From the NCBI RefSeq assembly GCF_964019385.1, contig NC_088646.1, positions 8,263,171-8,327,170 on the forward strand: a stretch of DNA of 64,000 nucleotides, read 5' to 3'. The notes beneath the pieces were generated by a model that was not told where the DNA came from, did no database searches, and saw nothing but the letters and a program-made list of their open reading frames with translations. Shown piece by piece: positions 2,591 through 47,526 of this stretch (the stretch's first letter is position 1; each line of letters opens with the position of its first letter). Both the position numbers and the translations under genes were made by a program. Source of the DNA: Sycon ciliatum. Lineage: Eukaryota; Porifera; Calcarea; Leucosolenida; Sycettidae.

Positions 2591-2605
2591 GGGGTCGTCC
2601 GCAAT

Positions 2606-3345
2606 TACCGAAAGTTTTTTCCAATCCGTAGTAGCTTCAAATTTTTCCTCACCCACCCACCCACCCCCTCAGTCCGTAATAAAATATTATTGATGGACAC
2701 ACAACCCAACACATATGAAACAAACTCAATCAGTGCTGGTCCATGAGTCATAGTGACATCATGTATTGTATTACAACTACCATAATTGATGTTTAATTGG
2801 TGTTCACCGAAATGTTCAAGCAGCACTATCATAATACAGCTCGAGCTCGAGGACAACTGCCACAAGCAATTTATTGTTCTGTAATAATCAGAGTCACCAG
2901 CGGTTTTGAAAAAGGGCTGCTTCTTCACCGCCTTTCCAAACAACGTCGCCTGTCTGGACATAGTCGTCAGTGCCAGCGCTAGACGGAAGGACTTCAAAGG
3001 AGTGCATGGAAGACGGTACTCTGGACGAAGGAGACAGTGAAACTCAAAAATAGAAAGTGTCGACTCGCCGTCGAATGCGCCGAACTAATTACTTTATGAT
3101 CCCCGGCCCAAGAGCAGCCAAGGAAGCGCACGCGGGGGCGCAGAAACTGCCAGAACTACAAAAATATTTGTAGTAGACAGTTCGCGCGCAGCCGCGCGTG
3201 GAAAACAGGGGCTACTAGTACACGTAGACGTACACGTGGCACGTGCACGTGTCATTTCGGAAGTTTTTCAATCCGTAACTGGCCTTGACCCACCCACCCA
3301 CTTTCGAAGCTACTACGGATTGGAAAAAAAGTTACTTTCGATAAT
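2606..3345. repeat. Inverted repeat within the left part of the 6.2-kb element
   Basis: About 2606-2636 (CCGAAAGTTTTTTCCAATCC, then GTAGTAGCTTC) matches the reverse complement of about 3306-3342 (GAAGCTACTACGGATTGG, then the A/T-rich end). C-rich ACCCACCC tracts lie inside both arms. This suggests a smaller element forms, or sits in, the left end of the larger one. Confidence 0.7.
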
Positions 3346-3722
3346 CGTAGATTCCGCTAGGACCCGCAGGGTCCGACGTGGAATCGGGGTTACACGAGGA
3401 GTGAAGGCGAAGAATGTGACAGTGTGTTTGGCCTCAAATCGCTCTAGTTTTCCATAAATTTCCAGCGGTTTAAAGATAAAAATGCAAATGCACGCATTGA
3501 TTGCACCTAGCACCTCTTGCTTTCTTTGGCCTTTTCTGAGCGACCAAAATGAAAGTGCAATCAAGAGTAGTGACAGTGAGGGGTGGGTGACACCAGCACA
3601 ATGGGCGGGAACACACTGTCACATTCTTCGCCTTCACTCCTCGTGTAACCCCGATTCCACGTCGGACCCTGCGGGTCCTAGCGGAATCTACGATTACACT
3701 TCGGAGCTTCGGCTTCGAATGT
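3339..3722. repeat. Long hairpin: inverted arms 3339-3425 and 3612-3705
   Basis: The left arm contains GATTCCGCTAGGACCCGCAG and GGGGTTACACGAGGAGTGAA. The right arm contains the same blocks reversed and complemented (TTCACTCCTCGTGTAACCCC, CTGCGGGTCCTAGCGGAATC). The roughly 85-bp arms are nearly perfect, with a loop of about 190 bp. Confidence 0.85.
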
Positions 3723-6700
3723 GACAGTGTGACTTTTAAAGTGATCCACCACCTCAACCAAGGCAAGGGCGTAGCCAAGCATTATGTGCGAAGGAGAAGC
3801 GCGCATGTGGAGGGAAGGAACAGGCATCTCGCAGAGTGCCTGATATACAGTAAAAATGACGCTATGTATCGAGGATACACCATATGTACAGGTGCCCTTC
3901 AAGTCGGAGACATGAAGGGAGAAAAGGGTGACAGTCAATTAAAAACGACTAGCACCGGACACAGATAATAATACTGCGACACCATGGCGAGGCTGTGTCA
4001 AAATATGGAATGTCACAGTACTCCTCGAGCCAGGAATGTGGACAAAGAAGTTTGTCCCTTGCAAACCAGGGAACCAGGAAGGTCTTAGATCTGGAACCCT
4101 AGACATTTGTCTTGCGGACGGAGGCAAGGGCGAACACAACACGTACCTTCGGGAGTTGATGGCAGTGGAATACGGACAGACTGCGAAGCTCCGAGGTGAA
4201 CGGGGAGCCTGAGTCAAAACCATCTACATGGGAACGTGCCGCGTCAGACGTTTCCGAGGCAATTGGGATTGGGTCTCCAAGCCTGCAGAACCTCCAGAAC
4301 ATTGATGACACTCCATGTGCTGGCAGGCCAGCAGTAATAGACATCGGGCATCAAATGGGTGGTCGCTACATCAGCCTGGCCAATACTCCAAGAGGCCCTG
4401 AGCACGTAGCTGAAGTGTCGACGAGAGAGGAGAAAGATGCATAGGTAATTGGTCTATACTGCCTCCCTACATCGCACTGGGTGGCTAAGGAGTTGGTCCG
4501 ACTGCGATGAACTCCAGACCGGACCCACCAACAGCACTTGCTATATGTGGTGAATAGCGCCAACCATCAGGATGAGGCAGAATGGAGGGTGCAGAAGTGC
4601 ATTCTCCCACTGGTCTGGTCTGCCGGAAGGTCCAAGGAAGCCTGGCCCTCGGCCTCAGGATCTGAGCGCTAACTCACATACTGGTCCAGGTAGCGGGTAT
4701 GGCTGGCCACAAATCGGGCAAGTGATCTGTACCAATGATGTAACTGTGTACATGGTGTAAGGACCTACCTGTCCAACAGGCAGTTGCAGCTGTCTGCAAA
4801 CCGTGACGGTCGTGTGGGTCGTGGACGATGTCCCGAACATTGACGGCGACTAGGTGGAGCCAGCGGGGTCGCGCCAATAGTAATAGTTATGTACTCTTGG
4901 TAGCGCTAACAGACACATAGGTATCCAATGTTTCTTTCCTTGGATACGTAAGCAACAGCCATCACATGATCAATCTCGACATGCAAAGGTACTCCAGTTA
5001 TGCCATGCACTGGGGCTTGCAGACCAAGGCACTCCGCCCACAAGCAGTAGATGAATGGAGTTTAACTCCTGCAGAGTCATGTGGTTATGGGTGGCTGCTG
5101 TGCATGGGTCCTGAACTGACGGGCTCTCGTAGCGCAGCGATGGCACCTGTGAGGTGACTAGCTGGCCATCCCCGACTGAAAAGTGACAGACCCAGTAATG
5201 GAGACTTGTCAATTGAATCACGAGACCATATATCGAGGTTGCACAGCCAAAGCTGTGGAGCTCTATCCTGCAAGCACTATACTGTAATGAATTGATCGAC
5301 TGTGAAGCTGGACTAGCGGGAACGCCTTCCTCAATTCCGGACACTTCACGTTCAGGCGCCTCAAGTGGCTTGGTGATGGTAGAGATGGTGAGCCTCATAC
5401 ATTCCAGGGACTGCACCAGCTACAAGCCGGACTTGTGCAGGTTTACTTGGAGCTCGAGATGCTCCAGGAGGCGGATCGTTGCTTGCACTATGGTGTGCCG
5501 CAACCAGACCGCACACAATAATGAGGCAGGTGGCAATGCACATCACTACCTTCACCGCCCATGTCCGGAAAATGCAGACGATCGATGCAGACACTTGGTG
5601 CATGTGCGGAGTGAATAACACATGCCGAACGGTAGACATGTGTACCGCCAGCCACTTCCGGATGGATGCCGGTCGAGTGACACATGTCCTGCATGGCCAA
5701 ATAGCACATTGCCTCCATGAGGCTGGCAACATCGTCAGTGGCCGTACCGGGTCTCCAGCTTGCAGGGACCTGTGGTGATATAATCGTCATATTCGGGTGC
5801 TCACCGATGGTAGAGATGACGCAGGATGCGGAGCCAATGGCTGCTTGGATGGTCATTTGAACTGGACATAGTTTATATCCGTAGATCTCAGGTATATGTA
5901 TGGCTTACTCAGCTATTGCACAACATGGTCATGGACCTTGGGAGTGCACAGGACGTCTACGGCAAGACAAGGGTGAATGTACATGGAGGTCATCAAGTTC
6001 TTCCTCCACGGTGAGAACACAAAGACATCACATATTCACTGATTTCCTTCTGCGCTAGGAAAGCAGTTTTCTATACAATATACATAACTGTATATTTGTT
6101 TACAAAGAGGCGTCTTTTCGAGGGTAGAGGGCTCAACACGATGCGGAGCACTATGATGATTTCATTGAGTAAGGAACTCAAAGTTGCAACAAACTCTAAG
6201 ACCTCCTTGTGCCTGTTGTGTATATACCTGTTGTGTATATATTTTATACGTGAAGTACATTTATGCAAATGTACTCGTAAGCGTACCAAGTAAGGCACAC
6301 CGTGAAAGGCCACCGACAGCCGAGCAGGCTGGTAGTATGGACCATTGGCTGCACCATTACGGGAGTGGCACGACATGCATCCAGCTGCTTCAGCTCGTCT
6401 GCCAAGCCCTTGTTGGTAACGAAAGCCTGGTACATCGTGGGTCGGGCACAAGGCACACGTGCATGCAGTACCGGCGTATCCGCCATATCAGTACTAAACA
6501 GTACGAGACTGATCTGGTTGCTAGCTATGGTTGCTAGCTATAATATACCGGTAAGTAGATTCCTTCTGGGTGCGTAGATATTCCAGGATACGTACGATGA
6601 AATGCTATCCACAGTAGTAAATTACAGATATGGTTACTTGGACCTGCCGTTGCACGGAAAGGGCCGCGCTGATATGCACATATCATATGGGCAATGAATT

Positions 6701-7169
6701 GATCCCAGTTATGGATGCGGCAGTAATCGTGCAAGGCCTTGGCTGGCCAGACCAAAAAAAGGGGGTGGTCCCTCGCGGTACCCGAGGTGGGCACTAACTT
6801 GAGTAGTGGAAGGCAGTATACCACAAGTCATAGCGTACACAAAGGCAAGTGTACATGACATTGCACTCTTGGCACTACGCTCAGCAGATAGCTGGAGCGC
6901 CCGTGTCCGTACGTGCTCCAGCCACCGAAGGTCAGACTGAGGTATGGCAACAGCAAAAGTGTTATATGCTTCACCACTTCGAGGTTGCTATCACAAAAGG
7001 TGCTTGAGCAATAGGAGTGGCAGTACATTGTTGGCACTGCACAAATGGCAACCATTTGATGTTTATTTTTCATTGCTCACAGAGGTGCATCAGCCACCTC
7101 TGACATCGTGATTATGCTTCCAGAACCATGTATCTACATACAGGTAAACCTGTCTTAACCGGACGCCCG

Positions 7170-7234
7170 TGGTGCAGCGGAAACTGGTCTGATATGACAT
7201 TATTCCGCTTGACACAGGGATGTACGTTCGATCC
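7170..7234 (+). repeat. tRNA-like A and B boxes, possible SINE head
   Basis: TGGTGCAGCGG at 7170-7180 fits the pol III A-box consensus. GTTCGATCC at 7226-7234 fits the B box. The spacing of 45 nt between them is usual for tRNA-derived promoters. I could not fold a complete tRNA with a matching acceptor stem, so a decayed tRNA-derived SINE is more likely than a working tRNA gene. Confidence 0.35.
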
Positions 7235-7683
7235 ACAGCCCTTTGGTGCAGGAACATTTCCCGGTCAATACGGGATTCTGCTTGGTATAGGAGCAAGCAA
7301 ACACAGGTAGAACTGTACTTGCGAAACAACAATATGAGCATGGCAGAACGGCATTAAGTTATGGGCGTGACTCTGGGCATGAAACAAAGCACTCGCCGGT
7401 GCTTGCAAAGCCACGAGACCATCGTTCATCACCAATGGACTAATGGTTAGAGTGTGGCAAGGCCCCCGACAGGGCCTGCCCACTGGCGTGACGGAAGCCA
7501 CCATATCTACAATGACCGCACAGTCCACCAACATGGGTGGATGCGAGTTAGGCACAGACATTGGAAAGGCACTCCTGCTTTTCATGAAATTGCCCTGACC
7601 ACACCAGGAAGGCACGACTCAGGGCAAGAAACAAAGCACTCGCTGGTGCTTGCAAACCCACGAGACCATCGTCCATGGATAGT

Positions 7684-8115
7684 GGATAGAGTGGTTAGAG
7701 TGCGGCAAGGCACGCGACAGGGCCTGCCCACTGTAGAGACCATCGTCCATCGACAGTGGACGGATGGTTAGAGTGTAGCAAGGCACGCGACAGGGCCTGC
7801 CCACTGGTTCGACCATCGTCCATCCGCAGTGGATGGGTGGTTAGAGTGGCTAGAGTGTGGCAAGGCACGCGACAGGGCCTGCTCACTGTAGACTATCGTC
7901 CATGGACAATTGACGTATGGTTAGAGTGCGGCAAGGCACACGACATGGCCTGCCCAGTGGTGTGACCATCGTCCATCGACAGTGGATGGATGGCTAGAGT
8001 GTGGCAAGGCACGCGACAGGGCCTGCCCACTGGTGAGACCGTCGTCCATCGACAGTGGACGGATGGTTTGAGTGTGGCAAGACACGCGACAGGGCCTGCC
8101 CACTGTCGTGACAGA
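7684..8115. repeat. Minisatellite, about six copies of a 71-82-bp unit
   Basis: The core GCAAGGCACGCGACAGGGCC, or a close variant, starts at 7705, 7778, 7860, 7931, 8004 and 8077. The spacings are 73, 82, 71, 73 and 73 bp. Diverged copies lie at about 7456, 8193 and 8275. Each unit also holds CATCGTCCATCGACAGTGGA or a variant. The overlapping reading frames on both strands are repeat artefacts. Confidence 0.9.
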
Positions 8116-9261
8116 AGCCGCCGCATATCCGCCATGTCCGCGTCGTCCATCGATTGGGGTTGGATACCAGTTAGTTGTAGGTACAGAGATTGGCAAGGCA
8201 CTCGTCAGGGCCTGCCCAATGACGTGACGTAAGCCGTCTGTTGATGTTGCTACGCGCTAAGCGCAGAGCCTTGGCAAGGCACTCGAAAGAGCCTGCCGAA
8301 CTCGTGAAGGCCGCCCTGGCCCAACAGGGAAATCGTGACTCGGGGCATGAAACAAGGCACTCGTCGGTGCTTGCAAACCCACGGAACCATCGCAGCGTCG
8401 CCATCAGCATTGGCGGCCGAAAAGGCCGAAATTTCCGTATCGGCACAAACTAGTTACTTCAGCACTTACCTACACGGACAGCACGACGATCCGGTAGGAA
8501 CTCTTACTAGTCCTAGGCCTGGACTGCGAGCTTCAGCTTCGGAGTCATCATTACTTGTCATTAGACAATAGACACTGCCATAGCGGCGGTAGAAGACTGA
8601 AGTCTCAAGGATACTGGACAAAGGAAAAAAGGTAACCTATCAGCAAAGAAGCGAAAGAAAAGGCCAAAGAAAGCAAGAGGTGCTAGGTGCAATCAATGCG
8701 TGCATTTGCATTTTTATCTTTAAACCGCTGGAAATTTATGGAAAACTAGAGCGATTTGAGGCCAAACACACTGTCACATTCGAAGCCGAAGCTCCGAAGT
8801 GTAATTGCGGACGACCCCTAAGTCGTTCCCATTTTGGGAGTCTGTGCTCGAGGTTCAAGACTTCATAAGTAGATCTACGCATTAGTTAGTTACCATAGGC
8901 AGAAGTTGTCCTTGACAACCATGACGACTTCCCGACTCCCCACCGCATATGACTGAGTCTAGTCTGTACTGGCACTCGGACAACAGCTAGCCGCTGAGTC
9001 CGCGCTTCGCTTCAGTCTTCAGTCTGCAAGAAATGTCCCGTTTGTACCGATCAACGGATCAAGAAGCTGCTCCGGAGTTCTTCTCCAGGTCAGTTACTTA
9101 CCGACTATTAGGACTCAAAGAAATGAATCGACGGTGCTGATCCGCGGACTGCTACACAACATCACGAAATTTCCTCTGGGCCGGCCGCAGTGCCAGTGAA
9201 CGTAAAGAAGGGTCCATAACAGTTGTTGGTTAGATCAAACAGAGAAGCTAGTGACTGAGGT

Positions 9262-38300: not shown

Positions 38301-41300
38301 ATATTAAAGCCAGCTGTCACCGCGAGGCGCCGATGCCTCGCACTTTGCTGTCTGTCAGCGCAGCATTCAACCGTGTGACATTTGTGTATTCTCCAGTCAA
38401 GTGTGCATACTTGATTGCTTTTCATCCTGTTTGGTATGTACAGGAAGTTATGGGAGGCATCCACTGGCGTGCATCTGGCTACTTTTGCCCACCCACACAT
38501 CGTCAAGGCGGTGGCCTTCACGAATGTAAGTAATATTTGTAGATTGGGTTCTATCAGAACTCAACATGCTTATCCTATAGACCTTATGCACGTTGCACAG
38601 ATGTACAACGTTCTGTACTACATGTACATGTAGGACCGTAGGTGTGTACAGACCCAGTTGGGTGTTCATTGTGTGCTATGCATGCGCATTTGACAATTTT
38701 AGCCTCATAATTAATGGCAAACAATCACTTGTCCAGCTTCTTCACTTTGGTTAGAACTAATGACTAGCTAGATCTTTGTCAGAAAAAAGGTTTTCGTATG
38801 AAATGCCTTCAGGGCCTTTCTTAGTGGAAATAGCAGTAAACACAATAGGGTCCTGCACATTCAACACCCAACCGGTTCTACGGGATTTCGTGCATCTGTA
38901 CAACGTGCATAAGGCTTATTCTACTCTCCATTGCTGGTGCTATGCCAGGCAGTGATGTGTTACCTGGATTGTGATAGCTGCTGGCTAACGCATCTAAAGC
39001 CTCAGAAAATCCTGACTTGGTTGGTTAGTTAGAATTCCCTGACTGACGAGGACACAGATCCCTGATGCAAATAACTTGATAACTCGGGACCTTTCAGCCT
39101 ATTGTTGCAGAAGCACTAATTTTCTTCTTGAAAACTGTTCCATGTGTGCATCAATTGTACTTCTGGGGAACTTGCGAAGGAGATTCTGGCCCAACTTCGG
39201 TCCTGTGCCCTTGTCCTTATTTGTGTACGCTGGGTCTTCCCCAAGAATGAGCAACCCCGCACATGGGCTCAGGACAGCACAATTTGTTGTTTAGTAATGT
39301 TTACGTCATTAGAGCAGTTCCGCGCTACGTAGTTATGTTACAGGTGGAGTCCTGATAGTTCGAACCCCGAAATTCCAGAGATGCCATGACTAATTTGTAC
39401 GAAATGTTGCTTTTTCTGCATTTGGTGTTATCTGGCCCTTTTCTCACTATCCATCACTGCATTTCACAGATTCATTTCAGGAAATATATACCGTATGTTC
39501 AACATTTCGGTCAAGAAATATGCGAATAAGCATCACTGGGAATGAATTGGGCACGGGTGGGATAGTCAGTGTTGTGCACTTTCGTACGAATGATGATGCG
39601 TGAAGTGCCCTGCTTTATTCTAAATGGCCCCCTTCCTGTTCGTCTTTTTCTCTATTTCTTGTCCCAGGACAAGACAAGGCTAGTGACCGGCTGCCAAAAT
39701 AAACAAGTCTATATCTGCAGCTGTGAAAGGCCTGATGCAGGTGAGCAGTGGACGAACTGCATGTCTTTGCTGTTGCTGTTATTTACTTCAATCGTGGCGG
39801 CACTTAGCCTGTGCTTGGTAGAACTATCTCCTACTGACTTTACTAATGGAGTGAATAGGTTTGCTGTTGTAATCTAAGACATTATTTAGCGTTGCTGTAA
39901 GTGTAGAGGTGGCACCTATGCCTCTCTCTTTGTCTGAGTTGTGGTCAATGTGAACATATTCTTCTTTGATTATAGAAAAGCAATTGCTGAAGAAACATAA
40001 TTCCATGGTAAAGCGTGTTTGCTGCGGTCCCGGTGACAACTTGGTTTTCAGCTCTTCAGAAGATAGCTGCATTGGGTAAGTGTGCAATGCCATCTGCTAC
40101 ACTATTGCTGTTGCTCATTAACTGTCAACACAATGCATTCCTGTTTCCTAGTGTCCTCGGTGGGTAACTTTAGTGGCATGTTGTGATGTTGCGGTGAGCG
40201 GTTGCATTGCTGTGGAAGTGCATGCCATCAGGTTGTCCAGCTCCTATGTGTGGCTGCCATGGCACTATTCCGGGGTATTATCTGTGCAGTGGTGCTCTGC
40301 ACACCAGTAGGACTAGAGCAGGCATCCTGTGGCACAAATGCAGCTCAGTTCCACACACTACATTGCTTTGCACCACTCATTTCCACCTACCCGGACGTGA
40401 TCCAGACTTTTTGCCGCGTGACACCTATGCGGAACTTGTGCTATCCGATTTTCACGTACTCTTGATTATGGTCTAGCTACAAAGCAGTGGTGTGGCAATG
40501 GTCTTTTTATTACTGCAGTACCATTCCTTCTTGATCGTTCTTTGTATGTCATAGTGTTCATTGCATATTCATCACTTCATTCCTTTGTGCTGAACGTGAT
40601 CACATGTAGGTATGCAAGTGTTTGTGTTGTTTCTTTCTTTGTACTGTGAAGTGGTTCTCATTTTGGTGTTGTGTATGTCATGTGTGCTCCTATTCTGTTT
40701 CTTACTGTTTTCTTCCAGTGTTTGGGACCTCCGCAGCAACCAGGAAGTACAGTCGCTGCCCACCACCAACGCAGTGACCAGCTTGGAATTGTCGCGTGAC
40801 GGAAATCATTTGACTGCCTGTCACGACAGAATTGTCACCGTGTACAATGCTGCAACGTAAGTGACTGCGTGATGTGCGCAGGTGGTCTGAAGGGTGTAGA
40901 CAGCGACTGTGTGTGCGTGTGTGCTGTGTTTCTGTACACTTGTGCAGTCATATTACCGGTATTACTGCGTATCCCCAAGAGTACATAAGGCCAAGTAAAA
41001 TAAAATCCCAGTTTATCGTCCTTTTTTTCACAAAAATCGGGGAGGGAGGGCGGATTTTATTTTTATTTTTTATTTTTTGATGTGCTACAGACTAGTATAG
41101 TTCTTGGTAAACAATGACACATCATGTGCAACAATCTGCAACAGAATAGTGGTAGTGTATGGAATACACAATGCTATAACAGTTATATGTACATAAACAA
41201 TTACATGCAAAATCTTTGGATCGACAGATTGTCACTCCACTCATAAGACACAAACCCCAATACTGTTTGGTTCACACAGACCACCAGATAAATGATAGAA

Positions 41301-44300
41301 AGCTGCAGAAGGGAAAGAACCAGTCAGAACAGTAACCAATAGTCAGTCATAAAGGGAACATGTTGGAATACAATTCACTTCTTCCCCTGAGGGACATGCG
41401 TGCGGGTACGCTTCTTCATGGCGCTCTTCCCAGACTCCTGGCAAGCACCACACACAGGATACGCATCGGCATTATTGACTAGACCCTCTCCTGAAGCGCA
41501 GTAGCAGCATACAGTGGGATACCCAGCAGAGTAGTACGGGATCTCAATAGGACTGTCACATGTGAGATTTCCCTTGACGTGCACGGAAGCCAGGGCACTG
41601 GTGACTTCGCAAGCTACATCCGTGAGATGACTGCCACAGGAGAAGCTCAGGGTCTCCAAGGCCGCGACCAGTTCCACACGTGCTGCTGACTTGACGCTCT
41701 GCTTGGCATACAGAACACGAGGCTTGCCACACTCGGAGCACCTGATGACCTCCTTGACATTCTTGGCATACTGGGCGCTGGGCGGGAATGGCATGCCATG
41801 ACCACCAGAGGCTGACTGGCTTGCTGCAACCAGAGATGGCCTGTGCTTCTCCAATGTTGGTTCGCCATATACAGCATCAAAGCTCTTGTACCGCTCGCCA
41901 TCAGGTACAGGGTCTGGGAGGTGATGCAGCTTCGAGAAGACATCCTCTGGCAGTCGCGGAGGCTTGCACACTGAGCATGCTGGTTTGCCACACTTCAGGA
42001 TGGTGAAGGAGTAATGCCGGGCAATGCAGTGCTCTTCCAGGAATGTCAGAAGTACCTTGTTCTTTGAAATGGACTGCTTGGTGGTACTCTTGGTATCCAG
42101 TGACGGGTCGATGAGTTTGACGGTGTCACGAAAAGCCTCAACCTCCTCGTCCGTGGCAGCATGAAAGCACTGGAATGGTACACCCGTCAGGCGAAGGCGT
42201 TGGAACAGCGAGCAAATCAAGATCTTCATATCTTCCATTGCATCCAGCACTGCATCTTTCAGGCCAGGGGTCTTCACGGCAGCATTCCTGATGTCCTTCA
42301 TGTTGTTGCAGCCTTTCAGTTGATTCTCGAAAGTGGTCTCATTCCGAACTACACCGACACCCTGCAAAGCGATGTTCAAGATCGACATGATGCGCTCCAC
42401 CGGATTCTTCCAAGAGTTGTACGGGGGTGTTCGAACAGCACAGACATAATCTAGGTCGAGCTTGATGAACAGCGACAGGAGGGACAACTGCGTGGAGAGG
42501 TAGGTTGGACGATGGTCGGGCCCGCCATCGGTGTACATGCAGAGGATAGGTTTTACATCGCCTTTCTGCAGGATACTCAGGAGCTCGCAACCATGGCGCG
42601 ATGGAGAGGAATGTTGAAATACACAGTCCTTCAAGCCCACGTGGACTGTTCTGCGATAGAAGGAGTCATCAATGGATTCTGGCACATCCACAATGAGATT
42701 CACGCTTGGTGTGAGATTGAACTTCGTGAAATCGTGGTCCGAAACTACCAGTTTTTCATTCAGCCCAACCAGAACCGGCCTTGATCTACTGCTGCCACAG
42801 GATGCCCAGGCTCTCCAACTTTGATTGTGTGCTTGTCATCTTGGCATACAAAGCACACATGATCACGAAACTGCACAGCAAATTCCCGCTCATAGCGAAA
42901 CAGAGCGCTGGCGTAGTGGCAGTCAATGTGAGCTGTCCGGAACTGACGTGATTGAACCATGAATTTTACTTTGAGTTTGCCCGTGTAGTGGCGAGCTGTA
43001 GCCAATGCAGGATTTCTCGGCCAGAACTGATACCGGAGCCATTGCACTGACGGGATGGGTGTGTCTGGAGGGCAACGCTTAGTGACCTCCTCGTGCATAT
43101 CCCTGACGCTCAAGGCCTTGGCAAGGTGAGTAATGACAGTGTTGTCTTCTTCCACATTGTCATGCCGTCGGTCATCAACTGCAGTCTCCACGGAGCTCTC
43201 AATGTATTGCTGGCATTGCTCAAGAAAAGCAGTATATGACTCGGGCCTACCGCTGTTCACAGTGCGCAAATCCCAGATGAGGTCTGCATCCTCTGTTTCG
43301 AACATTTCTGCAATTCGTTTGTCCACTGCTGCTTGGTCTGCGTTTGTACTGGCACTCGCATCTCCCGTGAGCCTTCTGTACACCTCCCGAAGAAATGCAG
43401 GCTTGGTGTTCGTCACAGAGCCAAACAGATGGATGAATTCCCTTCGCATAATGCGAGTGTGGAATGTTGGCATGCAGGATTTGAGCTGTTGCTGGATGGC
43501 GGAATTCTTTTGCAGGAGCTCAGATTCCTCAGCACACTCTGGAATACGCCAGATGAAATGCACATGCGCCTTGCTGCCAGTGTACGAATACAGAACGCAC
43601 TTGACGGGCACAACTATCCCCTCCAGGTACTCGTGTCTCCGGCGATGTTCAGTAGGACAATGGTCCTCAATCAGGATGTGTTCATAATCCTCAGCAGCAG
43701 ATATAGCGGCGTGCAGACTTCTATATCTCGCACCCAGAGTTGGCTTCACGACTAGAGTCGCCCCAATCACCTTCAGCTCATCCACGTCAGTTCTCACGCA
43801 GGTACGCTTGGCTTCACTGGTGTAGACTGTATCCAGATGCGCTTTCAGGTACGCAGCATACTTGCGGAAGTTGTCAGCAAGTCTCAACACAGCTTCCCGG
43901 ACACTTTTCCAGTGCTGGTGCTTCATGTAGGAGCAGCCAGCCAAGAAGAACAGGGATGACGACAACGCATCCAAATTCTGGCGGCACAGGTTCGACTGGT
44001 CCCGCTTTCTCCTTTTGCGATCTTCCGGCGTGTTGTACCCAACAAACTTCTCCAACAATGCAGGCACTGCACAACCTCGACTTGACAAGGTGTGGTGATT
44101 GCCATCGATATACCACAATGCATCACTGATTGTTCCTACGAAGTTCACACCAGCTGATCCAGCAAGCGCCTCTTCCCAGCCCAACTTGTTCTCCTCCAAG
44201 AACAGCAGAAGATCATTTTTCAGCACAGCTTTCTTGTTGACAGGGTTCCATTTCGGCGGAAGAGCACACTGCGTCTTCGACGCAGCCATCAACATAGCGA

Positions 44301-47300
44301 AAGCGTCACCAGACGGAGTTCTCTCCTGTGTTGTCGCTGTCGCTGCCTGTTCAGGGCAAGCGATAACGAATTCCACGTATTGCCCAAGAGCGCTGACAGT
44401 CTCGCCTACTGGCGAATCTGGACTCACAGGGGTTTTGGAACCTTGCTTTGTGTCGCCAACACTAGCTTGGACACAAGAGACAACGTCGCTCTCCTCAAGG
44501 CGCTCCCCATGGTCCAACTCGCCAGCGCTGAACTGGGTGAAAATGTCCGAGAGAGTTGAAGACGCAGAGACAACACAGCCATACCAGGACTTCAGAACTT
44601 TCAACCCGCGACGGATTTGCAGCAAAACAAACGGCATGTCGCTTCTCAACAAAGTCGCAACTACGGAAAGAACGGAAAACTGTCGAGGTCTCGACAGGAT
44701 GAAGACGGACTTTCGGCAGAAAGACGAAGCTGTGTTTTCAAGCCTTAGCCGACGTAAAAAATCAAGCTTTTGGCAAAATTCTAGATTTAAAAAATAAAAA
44801 TAAATTCCGGGCGGCCTCGAAAAATGGGGCGGGCGGGGACGATAAACTAGGATTTTTTTTACTTGGCCTAACCCTCCAGAGTGTGCAACTCCCACATACC
44901 CTGCTGTCCCGACAGAATTTCAAGTTGACGTCATACTTTATGACGCAATGCTCCTTGCACCAGTGATTTACAACATGTGTACGGGTGTCAACGCATCACA
45001 CGTTTTTCTTTGCAATAATTTGTACAGGATCGATGGGCTTCGGTCAACCACAGGTTCCGGATTCGTCTGATAATCTGTGTACAGTGCGCATTGCATCATC
45101 AAAATGACGTCAACTTGAAATTCTGTCGGGACAGCACCCATACTCGAGTTGCACACTCTGGGGGGTTATGTACTCTTGGTATCCCGGGCACTGTATTAGG
45201 GGCCGTCCATAATTATCAATCTTTTACAAAAAGAAAAAGTTTGGTTTATTTTATTTTATTTTTTACGAGAAACCACGAACCTCGAGAACAGAATACTGCA
45301 TGATAGAGGTGGTTGCAGACGCAACTGTGGTGGTGGTGAAACTGGAGCATCTCCGCCGACCTGAGGTTTGTGGGTGGGTCTATAGGAGAGTTTCGTTATG
45401 AAAAATATTGATAACTGAAATATCAATCCGTTCTAGTAGTCAAGTCAATACTGTATAACATTTTAGGTGCATTAAAATTTCGGTGCCACGGACCTGCCAG
45501 GTTTCCGGTGTAATGTAGAATTAGGTGACCAGCTTTCCCTTCATTTACAGTCCATACTCTAGTGCCTTTTAGGTGTAATTTAAATTTAGGTGCCTGTTTT
45601 CTCTACCGAAATCACCGAGATTAAAGTTACATCGAGAATAACATGTTTTTGTATATTTTTTGTTCAGGTGGAAGGGGGAGGGTCATAACTAAACTTTTTC
45701 GTTTCGTGAAAATTATTGATAATGCCGGATGGCCCCTTGATGTATGGTGCACTGGATATGCTATCCCAGTCACTTTTATCGTTGGTGCAGAGGACCTTGG
45801 CTATGGCGGGCATATCTTATGGCCCGAGGGCGTATATTTAACCCTCTCACTACCAGCCATTCAAATATCGATCCGCAATAGGCAATCACTAAATATTTCG
45901 TCACACGCTCAAATAATGTCGGATTATTACGAATGAGGGCTCTACGTCTTCAGAAAGACCTTGACTATCGACTGCAACTATCGCTTTCACTCCTTGGTGC
46001 ATAATTGGAGCACGGCGAAGCTCGAAGCTAGTGCGCGATCAAAAATGCGCATTAAAACATTTTGAGTCGGCGTCACGCTGAGAATAACTCTGATATCTTC
46101 TCGCTTACCTATGTGTTTTGGGGCTGGAAATCCTTCGGGTTTTAGGTATTTTCACAAGAACTTCGTCTGGTTTCTATGAGCCACGATTTTACAAATCAGT
46201 GAGCCACTCGTGACAGATCGCGCTGCGCATATTTGCTTGAGTTTGACAACGTCTTCTTCATCACGGCGCGGCACACACGAATGGCGCTTGGTGTTGTAGT
46301 TTCTACGAGTGCGTAGCTGCCATCATTAGCTTTCCAGAGAGTGGTTGTTTGTGAGAAATGGCCAAAGAGAGCAGAGACATAACAAAAGTCGTATTTTTGT
46401 AGACTGTGAATTGACTCAATGGCGAAAATAATGGGTAGTGAAAGGGTTAATGACGTTACACTGCATTTTGCTCAATCTGTGCTTGCTGAATACTGCTTGT
46501 TTGTAGGTTGGAGCCCATCAAGGAGCTGCAGATGCCCAGCAAAATGTACTCCGCCACTCTTCATCCAGCAAATGAGAGTGTCGTAACAGGTGGAGAAGAC
46601 CTGCAAATCTACAAGTTTGATTATGCCACAGGAGAACAACTAGGTACGATTTGCCTCCGTGTCGCACGTGCAATGGTTTGCAGACACGATAATATTATTA
46701 TTATGGGTGATCCGGGTACCTGTCTGTTTATTTTTTGTAACTGCTGATCCGTTAGCAAACGAGTACCCGACTTATTAGCTAACTTGTACAGTCGTACAGT
46801 TTGAATGTGTGGTTGCTGGTTGGATCCTGCTACATATGACAATTTAGACTGCTTTGCATGTAGCGCAGTATGTGCGCAGTATGTGCGCATGCTGCGCTTG
46901 TCGCGATGTAGTACACTTGCTGCGAATTGCATGGCATCGCATGTCCTCCTGGCACGAAATGTGGAAGGCTATTGTATAGTAACTGTAACTATTGGCTGCT
47001 AAAGGGAACGCGATAACCCGTCCGTTAAGCCAGGTACCCGTTTCTATCCTTAAAGGGTAACCGTTTCACCCCTAATTATTATACCTTAGTGCAAGATCCG
47101 CTGCCTTTCCTTATGATCGACACATGGCTGGAGATCCGTAAGGAACATCCTTGGTTGTACATTTAAGATTTGCCACTGATTTGGGTGTCAGCAGTATTTA
47201 TTTAAAAAAAAAACCCCCTGGGTACTGGTACTATCGTTGATGCTCGAAGTGGTCAGCCGTTATACTGCGTGGTATATCGGGTTGAGTTTTGATTGTGTGT

Positions 47301-47526
47301 CTGATTGTGCACCTTGGATTGATTGTATTGTGTGTTTGATATTCCAGAGGCGTACAAAGGTCACTTTGGTCCTATTCACGCTGTGAGGTACTCTCCTGAT
47401 GGTGAAGTGTACAGTTCCGGATCTGAGGATGGCACCCTTCGTCTCTGGCAAAACACAGTAGGAAAGACCTATGGCCTGTGGGTGGCCGAGGCATTGGCGC
47501 CAGAGGCTGCCAACACAGCATCCTAA
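35302..47526 (+). CDS. STRAP: Serine/threonine kinase receptor-associated protein (WD40)
   Basis: Eight exons join in frame: 35302-35413, 35497-35632, 38444-38525, 39668-39740, 39976-40075, 40719-40856, 46507-46643 and 47348-47526 (TAA), giving 318 residues. STRAP/UNRIP is a seven-blade WD40 protein of the SMN complex and a TGF-beta receptor and Unr partner. The start [20 protein letters not shown] and [20 protein letters not shown] are almost invariant in the family. Later blades read [40 protein letters not shown] and [16 protein letters not shown], ending [20 protein letters not shown]. The human protein is about 350 residues; the acidic tail is shorter here. The middle blade (exons 4-5) is the most diverged. 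Intron 2 holds a piggyBac-like MITE, and the 5.65-kb intron 6 holds a nest of transposons. Confidence 0.95.
35949..36882. mobile_element. piggyBac-like MITE with TTAA target, STRAP intron 2
   Basis: The ends are CCCGTTATGTACCGCGCATC and, on the other strand, CCCTTTTATGTGCTGCGCCC. TTAA flanks both (35945-35948, 36883-36886). CCC ends at a TTAA duplication are diagnostic of the piggyBac superfamily. The 934-bp interior has no transposase. Confidence 0.85.
38146..38190. repeat. Three tandem copies of a 15-bp unit
   Basis: The unit GTGCAGTGTGGTGTT is repeated exactly three times in STRAP intron 2. The length is a multiple of 3, so it makes repetitive frames that look coding but have no other support. 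Confidence 0.9.
39349..39500. mobile_element. One-ended Tigger-like fragment in STRAP intron 3
   Basis: CAGGTGGAGTCCTGATAGTT then CGAACCCCGAAATTCC matches the left end of the complete MITE at 19460-19837. I do not find the opposite end, so it is truncated. The right limit is a guess. Confidence 0.5.
41375..42788 (-). CDS. Orphan transposon protein, C-terminal part with DDE-like and zinc motifs
   Basis: The frame can be followed from about 42788 ([20 protein letters not shown]) to the stop at 41375, about 470 residues. It continues the frame ending at 42760 after a one-base-type shift. Candidate acidic catalytic residues are the first Asp in VSDHDFTKF or in [10 protein letters not shown], the second in [15 protein letters not shown], and Glu in [15 protein letters not shown]. 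This D-D-E spacing is compatible with an RNase H-like transposase, but that is inference. The C terminus is Cys-rich: [21 protein letters not shown] and [20 protein letters not shown] then GAC, like zinc-binding knuckles, and a basic tail [13 protein letters not shown]. The shift could be decay, a programmed frameshift or a removed intron. Confidence 0.7.
42773..44637 (-). CDS. Orphan transposon protein, N-terminal part
   Basis: The frame is open from 44895 to the stop at 42760. The part before about 44637 lies in the inverted repeat and flank, so a likely start is the ATG at 44637 ([18 protein letters not shown]). It encodes about 620 residues: a Ser/Thr/Gln-rich region, then helical segments including [44 protein letters not shown], an [11 protein letters not shown] block, [28 protein letters not shown], and near the end [20 protein letters not shown] then [12 protein letters not shown] recognise this order from uncharacterised proteins predicted in cnidarians and other invertebrates; I know no assigned function. 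The frame is lost at about 42773-42790, just after [14 protein letters not shown], and continues in the next frame. Confidence 0.7.
45194..45737. mobile_element. Inverted-repeat MITE related to the ends of the 2591-8818 element
   Basis: The left end GGGGCCGTCCATAATTATCA resembles GGGGTCGTCCGCAATTA at 2591. The right end, ATTATTGATAATGCCGGATGGCCCC, is its approximate inverse. It is preceded by TTA and followed by TTG, so the target duplication is imperfect. A second repeat (45450-45645) is nested inside. Confidence 0.65.
45450..45645. repeat. Dispersed inverted-repeat element, copy 1
   Basis: It matches 57453-57656 with the same order of phrases: AAAATTTCGGT, GGACCTGCCAGGTTTC, GGTGTAATGTAGAATTAGGT, TTTAGGTGTAATTTAAATTT, GCCGAAATCACCGA or a variant. 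The ends are weakly inverted (ATAACAT / ATAACATG). Confidence 0.8.
45842..46446. mobile_element. piggyBac-like MITE with TTAA target, STRAP intron 6
   Basis: The ends are CCCTCTCACTACC and its near inverse GGTAGTGAAAGGG, flanked by TTAA (45838-45841, 46447-46450). It is 605 bp with no transposase, and different in sequence from the TTAA element in intron 2. It ends 60 bp before exon 7. Confidence 0.85.

Follow-up and report, generated by a model that had tools for sequence, protein, structure and literature searches.

The window analysed here is a stretch of 64,000 nucleotides from the calcareous sponge Sycon ciliatum (NCBI RefSeq assembly GCF_964019385.1, contig NC_088646.1, positions 8,263,171 to 8,327,170 of the forward strand). 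It contains, at 40989-44868, a DNA transposon that sits within one arm of a palindromic miniature inverted-repeat transposable element (MITE), referred to below as the host MITE (Table 1). The original prediction, made from the sequence alone, had described a complete TAA-target DNA transposon, and these boundaries, the TAA on both sides and the empty sites bear this out. The transposon ends form inverted repeats of 33 bp with 93.9% identity, plus a 31-nt block further in with 84%, in place of the exact terminal inverted repeats of about 80 bp first proposed. The mirror arm of the host MITE has a single TAA where the transposon-bearing arm has two, as had been noticed at the outset. Moreover, two uninterrupted copies of the MITE (L089 and L090; 2/2 inspected) align at 96% across the joined flanks, again with one TAA. 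These copies were drawn from a genome search with 40 scored matches among 1082 candidates. Because they align through the joined flanks with a single TAA, they establish both the insertion and its 3-bp duplication. The element is a real cut-and-paste DNA transposon nested in another mobile element.

Table 1. Features of the transposon and of its insertion site, in window positions.
Feature	Position	Strand	Evidence
TAA target duplication, left	40986..40988	.	Flanks and uninterrupted MITE copies
Complete transposon, 3880 bp, transposase frame broken in the window copy	40989..44868	.	
Inverted terminal repeat, 3' side of the gene, GGCCAAGTAAAATAAAATCCCAGTTTATCGTCC	40989..41021	+	93.9% over 33 bp against the other end; 45 exact genome copies
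Inverted terminal repeat, 5' side of the gene	44837..44868	-	
TAA target duplication, right	44869..44871	.	
Host MITE with arms CCAAGAGTAC, split by the transposon	40975..45179	.	
N-terminal transposase frame, counted from the first ATG; corresponds to the start of the 1088-residue open reading frame of intact sibling L053	42760..44637	-	
Transposase C-terminal frame, 486 residues, with second catalytic Asp (D2), Glu and cysteine pairs	41375..42835	-	
4-bp deletion shifting the frame, approximate place	42774..42780	-	Alignment with intact sibling L053
Putative first catalytic Asp (D1), D600 of L053; aligns with D of DTKKK in ISAzo13	42838..42840	-	
DHDF motif, common to ISAzo13	42719..42739	-	
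Second catalytic Asp (D2), D705 of L053, in motif TDGGPDHR (42509-42532)	42527..42529	-	
Catalytic Glu, E749 of L053, in motif NPVERIMS (42383-42406); 43 residues from D2 to E	42395..42397	-	
Cysteine pair	41966..41995	-	
Further CxxC pairs CSEC, CCYC and CGAC; zinc-ribbon-like by eye	41441..41743	-	

The transposase gene lies on the minus strand. One long coding region had been predicted, and the window copy instead contains two frames, open from stop to stop at 42760-44919 and 41375-42835. A whole sibling, L053, measures 3885 bp, has TAA at either flank and carries a single frame of 1088 residues from its ATG. The window copy differs from it by seven substitutions and two deletions, of 1 bp and 4 bp. 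The 4-bp deletion lies near 42777, between D1 and D2, and shifts the frame, so the window copy cannot yield the full protein. The D motif (TDGGPDHR), the E motif (NPVERIMS) and the cysteine motifs recognized in the original prediction are all present. A third catalytic residue, absent from it, is the first D, whose motif lies within 42808-42846 in the other frame than the D2 and E motifs. Judging from the alignment, D600 of L053 and not the neighbouring D would be this residue. For the CxxC region at the C-terminus the best Pfam match, PF03604, has an E-value of 0.16, which is below the cut-off.

Copy searches covered the 538-Mb genome containing the window. The 33-bp end occurs in 45 exact copies and in two more with one mismatch, and the backward control gave none; further copies with the same ends, as had been anticipated, do exist. 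Forty-two of the 45 exact ends are preceded by TAA (26) or TTA (16), which represent one target read from opposite strands. The pattern used for this count omitted four bases at the far end, and all 42 of the places it gave belong to the 45. Among 20 loci sampled from the 40 scored matches, the window copy included, TAA or TTA precedes the end in every case. Both ends were seen in 12 of these loci, and identical 3-mers flank 11 of the 12. The two-ended loci measure 412-1400 bp. Nine appear to derive from the full element by simple internal deletion, and L011, L015 and L017 contain further or rearranged sequence. The aligned blocks of the short copies are 98-100% identical to the window element, except for one at 87.9% (L008). 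Eight near-identical sibling matches keep open transposase frames of 1129-1136 residues. Since open-frame siblings and short copies are near-identical, the genomic record suggests that the family moved recently.

When the C-terminal frame was searched against the genome, 62 matches were obtained, with identities from 100% down to 22%. The aligned relatives split into two groups: members of clade A, to which the window element belongs, are 35-73% identical to L053, and those of clade B 17-19%. Most of the complete relatives have frames of 1104-1140 residues. Of 11 element regions, six carry inverted ends together with a TAA or TTA duplication, relatives at 17-19% identity included. They comprise L053, F031, F033 and F037 in clade A (ends GGCCAAGT and GGCCACAC) and F059 and F060 in clade B (ends GGGGCCGTCCGTAA), and the ends of all six are of GGCC or GGGGCC type. 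The target and the GG..CC start are therefore common to both clades. A tree was built from 27 rows (nine of clade A, five of clade B, six of the 12 ISAzo13 proteins and seven IS630 proteins, with no Zator). It supports clade A at 92 and clade B at 95, and weakly joins the two against ISAzo13 and IS630 (support 70). Being poorly resolved between families, it was used for clade unity only.

The catalytic domain of these proteins is homologous to that of the bacterial ISAzo13 transposases. Two of 19 relatives, L060 and L061 of clade B, at 18-19% identity, exceed the cut-off of PF07592 (DDE_Tnp_ISAZ013) with E-values of 3.1e-7 and 2.1e-7. A genome-wide PF07592 search, in which the best candidates only were scored, returned these same two clade B places, one of them above the cut-off there. 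The NCBIfam ISAzo13 model (NF033519) matches 4 of the 19 relatives (best 1.3e-5). When L060 was compared by tblastn with 72,556 plasmid records at E-values up to 10, 22 records were retrieved (best 4e-3), five of them named ISAzo13 transposase, nine named transposase and eight without annotation. An ISAzo13 profile was built from 12 plasmid transposases, nine annotated as ISAzo13 and three as transposase. They came from 16 plasmid loci, of which L062, L069, L080 and L081 were excluded, no motif-bearing open frame having been picked from them.

Profiles of the two clades (built from 11 of the 13 rows of clade A and 4 of the 5 of clade B) were then compared with the ISAzo13 profile using hhalign; the percentages refer to single comparisons. 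Clade A scored 68.2 (96.1%, 171 columns) and clade B 68.1 (95.9%), and the clades scored 166 (99.6%) against each other. The maximum among 30 column shuffles was 20.2. The alignment pairs DDKHTIKVG with DTKKKELVG, DHDF with DHDF and NPVER with NPIE[HR], and the D2 motifs are aligned as well. The D-D-E triad, in the same order, is thus accompanied by DHDF and NPIE-type motifs as in ISAzo13, with DDK here for D[TSA]K there and a DGG/DNG motif in common. The D2-E spacing is 43 in 8 of 13 clade A rows, the motif pattern not reading the other five, and in 5 of 5 clade B rows; it is 42 in the 5 of 12 ISAzo13 rows that were read. A 3-bp duplication is also shared, on the ISAzo13 side according to PMC10045372. 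In contrast, the D1-D2 distance is 104-108 residues in clade A and 154-160 in clade B, compared to 85-90 in four ISAzo13 rows. The proteins described here reach about 1090-1140 residues, against about 400 in the full-length plasmid rows, and differ further by a long N-terminus, C-terminal cysteine pairs, a target fixed as TWA and residence in a 538-Mb eukaryote genome. From the homology to ISAzo13, an RNase H fold around the D-D-E triad would follow. The proposal that the protein is the transposase of the element agrees with these data; it looks like a DDE transposase.

Eukaryotic Zator elements are described as resembling prokaryotic ISAzo13, both giving 3-bp duplications (PMC10045372). The two features published for Zator, a 3-bp target duplication and a transposase akin to ISAzo13/TP36, are both found in the window family, the Zator side of this comparison being taken from the literature. 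The element is thus very probably a cut-and-paste transposon with a long DDE transposase of ISAzo13 stock, which belongs to Zator or is its sister. Comparison of the protein sequences supports the view of the window family as a divergent lineage of ISAzo13/Zator type, Zator being likened by its published description only.

Several observations weigh against this assignment. Neither the window frames nor clade A reach the cut-off of any Pfam family, and PF07592 in particular is matched neither by the two window frames nor by 14 clade A rows. The match of L060 and L061 to PF07592 spans 56 residues around D2 and E, corresponding to 55 of the 308 positions of the model. Where bits are shown, the NCBIfam matches fall far short of the curated cut-off (15.7 against 200 for L052). 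The homology of the catalytic domain emerges through profiles and distant relatives and not from the window protein alone: Pfam and PDB searches with the window frames gave nothing useful, and a profile search of PDB structures gave seven weak matches with no transposase among them. The comparison moreover favours clade B, because 6 of the 12 ISAzo13 rows were fetched via matches to clade B (L060), and one ISAzo13 row, L063, has just 59 residues between D1 and D2. Inverted ends were not seen in the fetched stretch of F035, F051, F052 and F061, and the region of F040 is incomplete at its end. Finally, the TAA duplications expected of further copies, found at most of them as detailed above, are lacking at some: 3 of the 45 exact ends, including that of the intact sibling L022 (C1:91538611), have no preceding TWA, and the two flanks of L015 differ, one being TTA and the other TAA. 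Relatives were also sought by tblastn in viral contigs (40 pattern matches) and in bacterial and archaeal contigs (83), and none was found in these sets, from which records near the window's genome may be excluded.

The Repbase rule defines a superfamily by convergence in iterated search (PSI-BLAST), with stated exceptions such as two groups that converge with different bacterial transposases, for example Zator and Mariner (PMC4455052). Under this rule clades A and B, which converge by profile, would fall into one superfamily, joined there by an ISAzo13-like eukaryotic group such as Zator, as only non-converging groups are separated. Together with the 3-bp duplication and the ISAzo13 kinship, which are the two literature features of Zator (PMC10045372), this brings the possibility that the element is an ordinary Zator family already in Repbase close to, though still short of, an even chance; against it stand the lack of a PF07592 match in clade A and a likeness to Zator that is one of description only. 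The very large protein, the cysteine-rich C-terminus and the TWA-restricted target would instead suit a new eukaryotic superfamily that arose independently from ISAzo13 stock, separate from Zator, as would the absence of a PF07592 match in 17 of 19 relatives and of an NCBIfam ISAzo13 match in 15 of 19, and the unity of each clade in the tree. We consider such a separate origin unlikely: the tree, with half of the ISAzo13 rows and no Zator, joins the two clades only weakly, and the Repbase criterion favours lumping. The undescribed superfamily of the original prediction is not supported, because clade B relatives pass PF07592, clade A reaches ISAzo13 by profile, and Zator is already tied to ISAzo13 with 3-bp duplications. 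It is likewise doubtful that clade A forms a separate ISAzo13-derived superfamily that converged on the PIF/Harbinger signature (TWA, GG(GG)CC ends), with some MITEs filed as PIF/Harbinger being its derivatives. In the literature titles and abstract starts searched, the window family, including its end GGGGCCGTCC, was not found; most subscription papers and Repbase itself lie outside this set, and the result is weak evidence of novelty.

The ends of PIF/Harbinger elements usually begin with GG, as they do here, and MITE-like derivatives occur in both. The TWA target duplication is also the same, as given for PIF/Harbinger in PMC4482050. Moreover, Harbinger-type transposases are abundant in this genome (809 candidates for PF13359, with 150 matches scored), which would fit a PIF/Harbinger element with a divergent transposase. 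However, PF13359 (DDE_Tnp_4) is matched by 0 of 19 relatives, and clade A scores 12.8 (0.08%) by hhalign against one Harbinger-type protein of the same genome, a single-sequence control and as such a weak one. No second gene of Myb/SANT type was found, the next longest open reading frame of L053 having 184 residues on the opposite strand, and the six antisense frames of the window element gave no Pfam match above the cut-off. With no PF13359 match, an hhalign score of 12.8 and no Myb-type partner gene, the PIF/Harbinger assignment was rejected as very improbable. The window family has a transposase of another DDE group and one gene rather than two, as the original prediction had suggested in setting it apart from the two-gene PIF/Harbinger layout.

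An element of Tc1/mariner or IS630 type is scarcely credible either. Its last motif, NPIE in IS630, resembles the NPVE of the window protein; the relative L031 matches IS630 at an E-value of 0.062 across the region of the E motif, and clade B scores 38 (54%) against seven IS630 proteins. This last score is like that of ISAzo13 against IS630 (39), as expected for far relatives. Zator and TP36, its bacterial relatives, are in turn reported to cluster near IS630 (PMC7386202, PMC8533490). However, the score of clade A against the same seven proteins is 16, inside the range of the shuffles, the target is the 3-bp TAA/TTA and not TA, and the D2-E spacing is 43. IS630/Tc1/mariner elements have a 2-bp TA target, small proteins and mostly shorter D2-E distances (DD34E and the like). 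The IS630/Tc1/mariner assignment was rejected on the clade A score, the 3-bp target and the D2-E spacing.

The transposase most likely binds the GGCC... ends through its N-terminal part, the C-terminal cysteine pairs, or both. The D-D-E triad, D600, D705 and E749 of L053, would cut the element out, and the ends would be joined to a TWA target with a 3-bp stagger, gap filling then giving the TAA/TTA duplication. Copies that have lost internal sequence but retain both ends may have been moved in trans. Transposition could be tested directly, as several near-identical copies have full frames. The assignment gives an identity to a large protein that Pfam does not recognize and, by way of its relatives in this genome, links it to a bacterial insertion sequence family. 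Since their TWA target and GG-type ends are the same, the short copies are easily misfiled as PIF/Harbinger MITEs. A TWA duplication with GGCC ends may thus not suffice to call a PIF/Harbinger MITE, and both transposase types coexist in this genome.

Clade B offers a few further observations. At 2591-8818 of the window, perfect 18-bp inverted ends (GGGGTCGTCCGCAATTAC) have TAA at either flank, and the segment 2839-2952, on the minus strand, matches the N-terminal part of the clade B protein L059 by tblastn (E-value 7e-6); this stretch probably represents a clade B relative in a degraded state. A 538-bp segment at 45199-45736, adjoining the host MITE, ends in imperfect inverted repeats about 48 bp long (GGGGCCGTCCATAATTATCAAT...), is flanked by TTA and TTG, and looks like a non-autonomous element of clade B type. 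The clade B genes L051 and L052, with frames of 1120 and 1140 residues, show no inverted ends in the fetched stretch, and the genome contains L052 at full length in one place only. They are possibly host-adopted genes, or their ends lie further out. Residues ~84-177 of L052 alone match nine other places at 32-40% identity, as if this N-terminal stretch were a module common to other elements.

The host MITE belongs to a high-copy family (1082 candidates). Its inner inverted arms are perfect over 33 bp, and inspection by eye suggests a 5-bp duplication, TATCC. Coding stretches at 40738-40860, ~46509-46643 and ~47349-47490 resemble, by eye, the WD40 protein STRAP. As these stretches flank them, the MITE and the transposon within it would presumably be intronic.

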